Positions 55,411 to 57,830 of a DNA stretch of 64,000 nucleotides are shown here, one piece after another; position 1 is the stretch's first letter; the number at the start of each line of letters is the position of its first letter. The translations under genes and the position numbers were made by a program. This DNA is from Hyphomonas chukchiensis (GTDB lineage Bacteria; Pseudomonadota; Alphaproteobacteria; Caulobacterales; Hyphomonadaceae), in the NCBI RefSeq assembly GCF_000682695.1, contig NZ_AWFG01000001.1:186001-250000 (forward strand). Direction: 5' to 3'. Under the pieces are notes generated by a model that saw nothing but the letters and a program-made list of their open reading frames with translations, had not been told where the DNA came from and did no database searches.

Positions 55411-56154
55411 ATGAGTGAGATGGACAAGACCGCCAGCCAGCCAGCCCGCAGGACATTGCTCCTCGGTGGCGCCCTGCTGGTCGGTGTGATCATCCTCTTC
55501 GCCCTCGGCAAGCTTGGCATCATGCCAAGCGAGAAGGCCCTCAACACCTGGATGGAAACCGTCGCCGGCAGCCCGTGGGGCCTGCCTACAATCATTCTGG
55601 TTTTCTGTGTGGCGGCCTTTCTGGGCGTACCCCAATTCGCATTGATTGCTGCAGCTGTTGCCGTATTCGGCCCTTGGCTCGGCTTTGCCTATGCGTGGAT
55701 TGCCAACATGTTTTCCGGCTCTCTGGCCTTCTGGCTTGGCCGTCTGGCGGGCGAGCAGATGTTCCGTCGCTATGCGGGCGCGACGGCCAATCGGCTGTCG
55801 ACTTTTGTCGGCCGGAATGCCTTTGCCACCAGCGCGCTGATCCGCAATGTCCCGACGGGGCCAGCTGTCATGGTGAACATGGCGTTCGGCGTCAGCTCGG
55901 CGAAATACAGTAACTTTGCGCTGGGCATGGCGCTGGGTATCCTACCTAAAATCGCGCTGATCGCCTTTGCCGGACAGAGCCTCTTCGCCGCCATGAAGGG
56001 CAATCCGGGCCTTGCCATCCTCGCGGCCTTCATCGCCGCCGCGATCTATGCCGCCATCGCCCTCTATGCCCGCACGCGCATGGGTCCGAAGGGGCAATCT
56101 GTCCCTTTGATCCGAGACAACCCGGTTGACACGGGGCCGAAACAAGATGATTAA
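55411..56154 (+). CDS. VTT-domain membrane protein (TVP38/DedA-like)
   Basis: The 247-residue protein has five to six hydrophobic helices and the VTT/SNARE-associated core: FLGVPQFALIAAAVAVFG, a re-entrant-type stretch, SLAFWLGRLAG and RNVPTGPAVMVNMAFG. Family members are implicated in lipid scrambling or carrier recycling. The 3' end overlaps the predicted leuA promoter (56126-56154), whose -35 and -10 lie inside its last codons. Confidence 0.88.
   Translation: MSEMDKTASQPARRTLLLGGALLVGVIILFALGKLGIMPSEKALNTWMETVAGSPWGLPTIILVFCVAAFLGVPQFALIAAAVAVFGPWLGFAYAWIANMFSGSLAFWLGRLAGEQMFRRYAGATANRLSTFVGRNAFATSALIRNVPTGPAVMVNMAFGVSSAKYSNFALGMALGILPKIALIAFAGQSLFAAMKGNPGLAILAAFIAAAIYAAIALYARTRMGPKGQSVPLIRDNPVDTGPKQDD
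56126..56154 (+). promoter_or_regulatory. predicted leu promoter inside the end of the VTT gene
   Basis: A perfect -35 hexamer TTGACA (56126-56131) is followed after 17 bases by a weak -10, GATTAA (56149-56154). The predicted transcript starts at 56161-56162, on the A of the leader-peptide ATG, which would make the leader peptide leaderless. Confidence 0.6.
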
Positions 56155-56161
56155 ACCAGTC

Positions 56162-56224
56162 ATGTGCAAGATTTTGCCCCTTTGCCTCCTGCTTACCGGC
56201 CCCTGGCCGGAGCCGACCGCCTAA
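56162..56224 (+). CDS. leuL: leucine leader peptide of the leuA attenuator
   Basis: A 20-codon frame contains the run LPLCLLL at residues 5-11, that is five Leu codons (TTG, CTT, CTC, CTG, CTT) in seven. It lies in the 143-base gap between the VTT gene and leuA and has no Shine-Dalgarno sequence. The predicted transcript starts at its ATG, as is known for the trpL leader of Sinorhizobium. Scarcity of charged tRNA-Leu would stall ribosomes over 56174-56194, leaving the following sequence free to form the antiterminator described at 56200-56250. Confidence 0.85.
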   Translation: MCKILPLCLLLTGPWPEPTA

Positions 56225-56250
56225 GTAACAGGCAGTTGCGCGGCCAGGGG
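56200..56250 (+). promoter_or_regulatory. antiterminator pairing of the leuA attenuator
   Basis: CCCCTGGCCG (56200-56209) is perfectly complementary over 10 bases to CGGCCAGGGG (56241-56250). The first segment lies within the leader peptide between the Leu codons and its stop codon. A ribosome stalled at the Leu codons leaves it free, while one reaching the stop covers it. Pairing would tie up the GGGG needed by the terminator. The first segment can alternatively fold on itself (CCGGCC/GGCCGG). Confidence 0.8.
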
Positions 56251-56272
56251 AATGCTTCCAGCCCCCCTTTTT
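56247..56272 (+). terminator. attenuator terminator before leuA
   Basis: GGGGAA (56247-56252) can pair with TTCC (56256-56259) and with the C run at 56262-56267, with a 2-base bulge, followed directly by TTTTT (56268-56272). The stem is modest, as expected of an attenuator. It shares its GGGG with the antiterminator. Confidence 0.7.
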
Positions 56273-56297
56273 CTCATTAAGCAGAGCCGCAAACATC

Positions 56298-57830
56298 ATG
56301 ACTGCCAATCCACATATCCGTATTTTCGACACCACTTTGCGTGACGGCGAGCAATCGCCCGGCGCCTCAATGACCCATACAGAAAAGCTCGAACTGGCGA
56401 GCCTGATGGAAGACATGGGCGTCGATGTCATCGAAGCCGGTTTCCCCGCCGCGTCCGACGGTGATTTCGCCGCTGTCAGCGCCATCGCTGCCCAGTCCAA
56501 GAGCGCGATCATCTGCGGCCTCGCCCGCTCCACGCCCAGCGACATCGAACGCTGCGCCGAAGCGGTAAAGAAGGCCGCGCGCCCACGCATCCACACATTC
56601 ATCTCCACCAGCCCCGTGCACATGAAGCACAAGCTGAAAATGGGACCGAATGCCGTGCTCGAAGCCGTCGGCCGTTCCGTCGCCCAGGCGCGCAACCATA
56701 CCGATGATGTCGAATGGAGCGCTGAAGACGCGACCCGCACCGATTTCGACTTCCTGTGCAAATGTATCGACGTTGCCATCGCATCAGGCGCCACGACGAT
56801 CAACGTGCCCGATACGGTCGGCTATTCGCACCCCGATGAGTACGGCGCCCTCTTCCGCCGCCTGATCGAGAACGTGCCGAATTCCGACAAGGCCATCTGG
56901 TCGGCCCACTGCCACAATGACCTCGGCCTCGCCGTCGCGAACTCCATCTCGGCTGTCGCCAATGGTGCCCGCCAGATCGAATGCGCCATAAACGGCCTCG
57001 GCGAACGCGCCGGCAATGCCGCGCTGGAAGAAGTCGTCATGGCGATGAAGGTCCGTGAGGATACGCTGCCCTTCTCGACCGGCATCAATCCTATCTACCT
57101 GTCGCGCGCCTCCGCGATGGTCAGCCGCATCACCGGCTTCCCTGTGCAGTACAACAAGGCCATCGTCGGCAAGAACGCCTTCGCGCATGAAAGCGGCATC
57201 CACCAGGACGGCATGCTGAAAAATGCCGAGACCTACGAGATCATGAAGCCGGAAGATGTCGGCGTCGCGAAAACGTCGCTGGTCATGGGCAAGCACTCCG
57301 GCCGCCACGCCTTCCGCGACAAGCTGGAAAGCATGGGCTATTTCCTCGAAGGCGACGCCCTGAACGACGCGTTCAAGCGCTTCAAGACGCTGGCCGACAA
57401 GAAGAAGCATGTGTTCGATGATGACATCGCCGTACTCGTTGACGACCAGCTGGCCGCCGAGGGCGAGCGCATCGTGTTCAAGCGCCTGCGCGTCGTCTGT
57501 GGCACCGATGGCCCGCAAACGGCCGAGATCGACCTGACAGTTGAAGGCGAAGAAAAATATGCCATCGCGCGAGGCAACGGCCCCGTGGATGCCGTGTTCA
57601 ATGCCATCCGGCAGATCGTGCCGCATGACAGCGTGCTGGATCTCTACCAGGTCCACGCCGTTACCGGCGGCACCGATGCGCAGGCGACCGTTTCGGTGCG
57701 CCTGAACGGCGAAGGCATCATGGCAACCGGGCGCTCATCCGACCCGGACACGCTCGTCGCGAGCGCCAAGGCCTATCTCCACGCGGTGAACAAGCTCGAA
57801 GCCCGCAAGGCCAAGCGCAAGGCCGCCTAG
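56298..57830 (+). CDS. leuA: 2-isopropylmalate synthase
   Basis: The 510-residue protein catalyses the first committed step of leucine synthesis, acetyl-CoA plus 2-oxoisovalerate. The TIM barrel begins with DTTLRDGEQSPG (Arg15 at the active site), has HCHNDLGLA as the metal-binding HxH and GLGERAGNA. The C-terminal regulatory domain (about 390-500) carries VTGGTDAQATVSV for leucine feedback. It is thus regulated twice: by leucine binding and by the upstream attenuator. No leuB/C/D follows; the next gene is exoD-like after an inverted repeat. Confidence 0.97.
   Translation: MTANPHIRIFDTTLRDGEQSPGASMTHTEKLELASLMEDMGVDVIEAGFPAASDGDFAAVSAIAAQSKSAIICGLARSTPSDIERCAEAVKKAARPRIHTFISTSPVHMKHKLKMGPNAVLEAVGRSVAQARNHTDDVEWSAEDATRTDFDFLCKCIDVAIASGATTINVPDTVGYSHPDEYGALFRRLIENVPNSDKAIWSAHCHNDLGLAVANSISAVANGARQIECAINGLGERAGNAALEEVVMAMKVREDTLPFSTGINPIYLSRASAMVSRITGFPVQYNKAIVGKNAFAHESGIHQDGMLKNAETYEIMKPEDVGVAKTSLVMGKHSGRHAFRDKLESMGYFLEGDALNDAFKRFKTLADKKKHVFDDDIAVLVDDQLAAEGERIVFKRLRVVCGTDGPQTAEIDLTVEGEEKYAIARGNGPVDAVFNAIRQIVPHDSVLDLYQVHAVTGGTDAQATVSVRLNGEGIMATGRSSDPDTLVASAKAYLHAVNKLEARKAKRKAA

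Follow-up and report, generated by a model that had tools for sequence, protein, structure and literature searches.

The closest described counterpart of the region examined here is the LEU element, reported from Actinobacteria in 2005, a leuA leader with a Leu-codon open reading frame (ORF) and a pseudoknot, whose mechanism is left open in the available text of that report (PMC1262725). According to the same text, a stem joins the Leu codons to the leuA Shine-Dalgarno (SD) sequence, and mutations of the Streptomyces coelicolor leuA leader are cited as having been reported inconsistent with classical attenuation (PMC1262725). Like the leader described below, the LEU element as set out there lies upstream of leuA and combines a Leu-codon leader ORF with internal helices and a structure involving the leuA SD (PMC1262725). 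However, it belongs to another phylum, and the LeuA encoded in the window is of another type (leuA_bact). The LeuL1 peptide of Streptomyces lividans is also comparable. In the available part of its description it is transcribed leaderless as a ...LLLLSC... peptide before leuA, in a leader without a typical Rho-independent terminator, and the peptide is given as MRFGLLLLSCRGEGL (PMC8079986). LeuL1 resembles the present leader in these respects, but it is actinobacterial.

Related arrangements are found in Alphaproteobacteria. In Sinorhizobium meliloti, trpL/rnTrpL is a leaderless attenuator ORF whose translation was seen by Ribo-seq; unlike the leuA leader, it carries Trp codons and, in the sections available, is a transcription attenuator that gives rise to an sRNA (PMC10117765). 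The ilvBN leader of Caulobacter crescentus likewise encodes a branched-chain amino-acid leader peptide in an alphaproteobacterium, but it has Ile/Val codons and works by a rho-independent terminator mechanism, as summarized in the available text (PMC4117421, citing Tarleton 1994). Leaderless mRNAs are described there as common in C. crescentus, with 375 counted (PMC4117421). For an alphaproteobacterial leuA leader, no paper appeared among the matches listed in the open-access literature, a scope that leaves out the attenuator survey of Vitreschak et al. (2004).

The locus compared with these systems is the gap before leuA in the window, meaning the whole 64,000-nucleotide stretch of Hyphomonas chukchiensis DNA that was analysed. 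Its features are the following, with their basis in brackets.

55411 to 56154, plus strand: upstream gene for a VTT-domain protein (ORF; Pfam PF09335, E=7.4e-20)
56126 to 56131, plus strand: -35 element TTGACA (sequence; TTGA[CT] spacing kept across the family)
56147 to 56161, plus strand: in-frame upstream ATG extension (MIKPV), which only read-through transcripts could use
56149 to 56154, plus strand: -10 element GATTAA, overlapping the upstream stop codon (A/T preference at -12 to -9 before the ATG in 41 non-redundant loci)
56162 to 56224, plus strand: leader peptide ORF MCKILPLCLLLTGPWPEPTA with its stop codon, predicted transcription start on the ATG (translation, conservation, promoter geometry)
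56174 to 56194, plus strand: Leu codons TTG, CTT, CTC, CTG and CTT (sequence, translation)
56192 to 56199, plus strand: octamer CTTANNNG, in the window CTTACCGG, comprising the last Leu codon and a spacer (conservation)
56196 to 56210, plus strand: hairpin 1:2, CCGGCC-CCT-GGCCGG, -11.4 kcal/mol (inverted-repeat search, folding)
56200 to 56209, plus strand: region 2, 5' strand of a 10-bp helix (inverted repeat, conservation)
56240 to 56244, plus strand: GCGGC in region 3, able to pair with GCCGC before leuA (covariation scan, folding)
56241 to 56250, plus strand: region 3, 3' strand of the 10-bp helix (inverted repeat, conservation)
56246 to 56272, plus strand: weak terminator-like hairpin AGGGG/CCCCT with T5 (a hairpin of this strength is confined to the window's clade)
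56278 to 56284, plus strand: TAAGCAG upstream of leuA, complementary to Leu codons, a LEU-element-like base stem (inverted-repeat search)
56286 to 56290, plus strand: GCCGC in the leuA translation initiation region, -12 to -8 (covariation scan, clade conservation)
56298 to 57830, plus strand: leuA, 2-isopropylmalate synthase, leuA_bact type (ORF and family match)

The closest named relative of the encoded LeuA is that of Hyphomonas oceanitis (99%), and the upstream gene gave no match in NCBIfam. Rfam models run against the window yielded nothing at the gathering threshold, the best hit within 56050-56400 being an unrelated lncRNA at E=0.16. The leuA upstream region was compared in a first set of 80 Alphaproteobacteria genomes and in a family set, for which 105 genomes were searched, 100 had a LeuA, pieces of 98 were read and 94 loci were usable. 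Four loci (L159, L166, L171 and L177) were left out as short pieces without a LeuA match, and L082, the window's own genome, was left out of the loci as well. From the other alphaproteobacterial loci (L027-L081), 49 of 55 were kept, with L035, L040, L067, L075, L077 and L080 lacking the helix. Since L029 duplicates L154, it is absent from the non-redundant sets, which comprise 42 family, 15 Caulobacteraceae-like and 25 other (mostly Rhizobiales-like) loci; loci were sorted into 'Caulobacteraceae-like' and 'other' by eye, using record titles and leader sequence.

An earlier note on this DNA had described a perfect TTGACA with a 17-base spacer, lying inside the end of the preceding gene. Both parts agree with the sequence: the spacer from TTGACA to GATTAA is 17 nt, and the last codons of the upstream gene together with its stop (56152-56154), which the -10 element overlaps, hold the promoter. 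GATTAA agrees with TATAAT at three of six positions, and a sigma-70 promoter scan reported no promoter at the leader on this strand. The leader ATG at 56162 stands 36 nt past the first T. Across the family this spacing is kept in 92/92 readable loci, with TTGA[CT] preceding an in-frame leader ATG by 35 nt in 23 loci and by 36 nt in 69; 94 loci were examined, two of which (L098 and L169) are cut by contig ends before the promoter, and leaders with more than one in-frame ATG were measured from whichever fits the promoter. By comparison, TTGA[CT] occurs 35 or 36 nt before 14 of 2244 ATGs of any kind in the window. In the Caulobacteraceae-like loci TTGC lies 35-37 nt before the leader ATG in 19/19, a motif that was chosen after looking.

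The usual spacing of -35 and -10 elements puts the start point on or beside the A of the leader ATG. From this spacing and the fixed promoter-to-ATG distance we infer a start at or next to the leader ATG, so that the transcript probably begins on its own start codon and the ORF is leaderless. The suggestion of a leaderless leader in the earlier note finds its support in this promoter geometry. The base preceding the leader ATG is C in 71% of 41 loci. SD-like motifs are seen before the leader ATG in 7/39 loci and before leuA, which is without a strong SD, in 8/39, giving no discrimination; the comparison is uninformative for the leader because leuA mostly does without an SD too. The extension from the in-frame ATG at 56147 overlaps the upstream stop codon and permits a 25-residue version of the leader. 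A matching in-frame ATG is also visible by eye in L002-L005.

Translation of 56162-56224 gives the 20-residue leader, with five Leu codons in seven, that had been read earlier: codons 5-11 specify L P L C L L L. In 91 leaders, read from the nearest ATG, 28% of residues are Leu; the nearest ATG served for leader lists and Leu counts, whereas promoter spacing uses the promoter-fitting in-frame ATG. The rare codon CTA accounts for 27 of 195 Leu codons in the non-redundant leaders (terminal CTT excluded) versus 37 of 2191 in window ORFs, a mechanical background of ORFs of at least 250 aa on both strands that may include shadow ORFs. In the Hyphomonadaceae, codons 1-6 of the leader (often ATG CGC AAG AAT TTG CC) appear well conserved by eye although they are not part of any paired region; leaderless initiation or a function of the peptide may be the reason.

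In 82 non-redundant loci with a located helix, the eight bases before region 2 begin with C (82/82), T (82/82), T (79/82) and A (81/82), followed by three variable bases and then G (81/82). The A is kept while starting Thr, Ser and Ile codons alike, so that the constraint at this point looks to act on the RNA as well as on Leu codons. In Rhizobiales-like loci (e.g. L034, L042, L057 and L066) the leader stop TGA falls within region 2.

The 10-bp antiterminator complement claimed previously corresponds to the one perfect 10-nt inverted repeat in 56120-56300, formed by 56200-56209 and 56241-56250, 31 nt apart. Besides it, the interval holds two 7-nt complements and the 6-bp hairpin 1:2, whose arms are 56196-56201 and 56205-56210. 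Folded as a single sequence, the leader is no more stable than shuffles (z -0.49). The helix pattern is present in all 94 usable family loci and in 49/55 of the others (143/149 in total), as against 5/143 shuffled regions, and in the first alphaproteobacterial set it was found in 72/81 (window included). The helix locator needs six of seven core pairs and prefers a CTTA or CTCA close by; dropping this preference left 142 of 143 placements unchanged. Each of the ten 2:3 base pairs forms in 39 to 42 of the 42 non-redundant family loci. Seven of the ten helped to locate the helix; the three independent pairs form in 42, 42 and 41 of 42 loci, as C-G, G-U, U-G, A-U and G-C. The locus therefore has the helix 2:3 of antiterminator type that a classical attenuator contains. 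Hairpin 1:2 strength correlates with stop-codon position (rho -0.59), a value that ignores kinship and was set aside as evidence.

Covariation connects region 3 to the ribosome-binding region (RBS) of leuA. In a scan of 10-nt leader segments against 10-nt segments before leuA, each locus's own partner was compared with partners from other loci. The best of 465 cells joins region 3 (8 before to 1 after the start of YCAGGGG) with leuA -16 to -7 (p=5.6e-7 uncorrected; 2.6e-4 after multiplication by 465), with the 14 top-ranking cells clustered in a single patch around this pairing. For instance, region 3 and RBS read CGGCCAG/CTGGCCG, CGCGTCC/GGACGCG, GGTCAGG/CCTGACC and GCGCCTGG/CCAGGCGC in family loci, and CGTCGCGG/CCGCGACG in one Caulobacteraceae-like locus. 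A locus's own stem exceeds the swapped mean in 33/42 family, 12/15 Caulobacteraceae-like and 16/25 other loci. As related loci are not independent, the comparison was repeated on disjoint sister pairs. The own partner was better in 16, worse in 6 and tied in 24 of 46 pairs (Wilcoxon p=0.0023), in windows picked after the scan on overlapping data; by duplex energy the result is weaker (p=0.02; sign test p=0.13). Control windows, four in the leader and one in the tail, gave p of at least 0.17 by both scores. The nine Caulobacteraceae-like sister pairs reached p=0.012 by duplex energy and 2 versus 1 by stem score, the latter not significant, and the 14 other-group pairs were significant by both scores (p=0.016 and 0.034).

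Folding predictions agree in the family and in the Caulobacteraceae-like loci. When each tail was exchanged for that of another genome, predicted pairing of region 3 with the RBS fell in the family (0.42 to 0.29, p=7.6e-7) and in Caulobacteraceae-like loci (0.34 to 0.22, p=0.005), while the other loci showed no effect (p=0.54). Predicted RBS accessibility in the family is 0.54 with 2:3 allowed versus 0.40 with region 2 masked (p=5e-9), being higher with 2:3 allowed in 34 and lower in 2 of 42 loci. The corresponding values are 0.50 and 0.45 in 15 Caulobacteraceae-like loci (p=0.036) and 0.60 and 0.58 in 24 others, mostly Rhizobiales-like, where there is little masking (p=0.11). The swapped-tail control matters here because the accessibility shift is partly built into the folding model.

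The window's own region 3:RBS pairing is 5 bp only (GCGGC/GCCGC), and its clade shows no covariation at this pair because region 3 and the RBS core are invariant there. With region 2 masked, the minimum-energy fold of the window nests the weak terminator hairpin inside the RBS-masking stem. In Caulobacteraceae-like loci a loop-to-RBS pairing, a potential pseudoknot, is seen. The Caulobacter-type loop pairing had been considered as the sole RBS contact, a view widened after the covariation scan. The Rhizobiales-like loci named above also have an extra hairpin, GCGCC..GGCGC, just before the leuA SD, whose 3' arm is complementary to the stretch preceding region 3 as well.

The stem characteristic of the LEU element has a possible parallel. 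CTGCTTA (56189-56195), within the Leu codons, complements TAAGCAG (56278-56284) over 7 nt, and in the family the complementarity between Leu run and RBS exceeds simple shuffles (p=5e-4), with own versus swapped partners at p=0.053. Neither the scan nor the sister pairs revealed covariation of the Leu-codon run with the RBS. In the LEU element the base stem runs from the Leu run to the SD, as described in the text available, whereas the covarying pair here runs from region 3 to the RBS; the two are compared by description (PMC1262725). The position upstream of leuA and the leader with a run of Leu codons are the same.

It is moderately probable that the leader is a leucine-sensing, ribosome-mediated attenuator acting chiefly on leuA translation, to which a terminator-like hairpin has been added in the window's clade. 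The ribosome-mediated attenuation proposed in the earlier note is supported as to the Leu-codon leader and helix 2:3, while region 3 covaries with the leuA ribosome-binding region. From the ORF, the potential helices, their conservation and the covariation, we infer stalling and its regulatory outcome as follows. Transcription would begin at the leader ATG, and a ribosome would load directly on the 5' AUG, as the promoter geometry suggests. When Leu-tRNA is scarce, the ribosome would stall at the Leu codons and cover segment 1, allowing region 2 to pair with region 3 over 10 bp and leaving the leuA ribosome-binding region free. With plentiful leucine the ribosome would proceed, and either hairpin 1:2 would form behind it or the ribosome itself would mask region 2. 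Region 3 would then pair with the leuA ribosome-binding region and block leuA translation. In the window's clade, the weak terminator-like hairpin nested in the closed structure may add transcription termination. Leucine shortage would thus likely turn leuA on, mainly via a freed translation start.

A classical transcription attenuator, in which 3:4 is an intrinsic terminator made of GGGG/CCCC and T5, appears unlikely. The hairpin at 56246-56268 with its T5 at 56268-56272 does fold to -8.8 kcal/mol, or -9.4 on a slightly wider piece, and a rho-independent attenuator is described for the Caulobacter ilvBN leader in the text available (PMC4117421). Against this, a generic terminator scan did not report the hairpin (56246-56272), and a hairpin with a U-tract between region 3 and leuA reaches -8 kcal/mol or below in only 3/94 family loci (the window together with its two nearest relatives) and -4 or below in 10/94; at neither threshold is one present in the 49 other alphaproteobacterial loci. 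The T5 is kept in three of six species of the window's clade and missing or displaced in the other three (CCCTCACAC, CCCCTAATTTTCC and CCCCTCACAC), while all six share an identical AAGCAGAGCCGCAA immediately ahead of leuA. Of the terminator in the earlier note there remains a weak form in the window, and no support for it as the general mechanism. Likewise, the comparison of related genomes that it proposed finds the Leu-rich frame and the 2:3 segments kept and the terminator segments mostly not. The conserved intrinsic terminator 3:4 of a classical attenuator is absent from most of the family. Given this rarity and the absence or displacement of T5 in close species, the hairpin is best seen as a local addition to the window's clade at most.

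Termination could instead depend on Rho, with the C-rich, G-poor stretch from region 3 to leuA serving as an entry site gated by leader translation. Family tails average 0.35 C and 0.17 G, and 10% of 60 upstream regions of mechanical long ORFs in the window reach their mean C-G of 0.18. The skew is not extreme; the 49 other loci show less of it (C 0.31, G 0.25), and it leaves the RBS covariation unexplained, making such gating improbable. Slightly less probable still is a leader that acts without the ribosome, by binding a protein in the way suggested for the LEU element of Actinobacteria, with the Leu codons secondary. The octamer CTTANNNG is more sequence-specific than Leu codons alone require, and the available text on the LEU element favours a protein (PMC1262725), but the enrichment of CTA in leaders and the promoter-to-ATG spacing, kept in every readable locus, speak against it.

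A model of the alphaproteobacterial leader (R1) matched 56 of 387 Alphaproteobacteria and, over the phylum, 48 of 299 genomes, all 48 within the class, in a draw whose share outside the class is not shown. At E<=0.01 a wider model (R2) matched 111 of 374 class genomes, 109 with a single match, and 263 gave nothing, under strict filters and with matches counted whether or not leuA follows. The window's own genome has one clear match, and the sister family within the order contains both genomes that match R1 and genomes that do not. In 25 of 27 class loci examined, leuA is preceded by the motif in the same orientation, at a distance of 54-185 nt from where the LeuA match begins; in L190 and L196 leuA is present and the motif pattern failed. 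In two of the 25, L205 and L209 (from G380 and G311), the leader precedes a distant LeuA, 27 and 26% identical to the window's over the best segment, that of L209 being of the TIGR00970 leuA_yeast type. The leader is therefore associated with two LeuA lineages. Plasmid-borne leuA genes (L225, S. meliloti pSymB; L227, Sphingomonas; L228, Shinella; L230, R. leguminosarum) have leaders of related appearance, which contain CTTA and a helix that differs and is self-complementary; in L230 this was seen by eye only.

Four actinobacterial leuA upstream regions found by tblastn (L222, L223, L224 and L231) were also compared. Two of them, L222 and L223, contain CTTAGCTG; both have CTTCTTAGCTGCC, as in several alphaproteobacterial leaders, followed by a 12-bp complement, and CTTCTTAGCTGCC is common to the Microbacterium and Nonomuraea leaders. 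L224 has the variant CTCGG with an 11-bp complement, and in L231, on a Streptomyces plasmid, no such motif was found. R1 detected L223 (E=0.0017), and R2 gave E=0.0025 for L222, in a match that skips the helix and is carried by the Leu run and octamer, and 0.092 for L223; L224 was found by neither model. On these sequence likenesses, a common origin of the alphaproteobacterial and actinobacterial leaders is plausible. A fuller proposal is offered only tentatively: that one ancient leuA leader, beginning with a leaderless Leu-rich ORF and marked by CTTANNNG ahead of a strong helix, is common to Alphaproteobacteria and Actinobacteria and to two LeuA lineages, with the 3' strand of the helix masking the leuA ribosome-binding region unless a ribosome stalls on the Leu codons.

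These results suggest that in amino-acid attenuators a leaderless leader peptide can be the rule across a whole family, beyond the case of trpL, and that region 3 can be wired to the ribosome-binding site instead of to a terminator. The covarying alphaproteobacterial counterpart, which includes Caulobacteraceae-like genomes, lies near a genetically tractable species rich in leaderless mRNAs and makes the mechanism of the LEU element directly testable. A shared ancient leuA leader, if true, would explain how the LEU element works.
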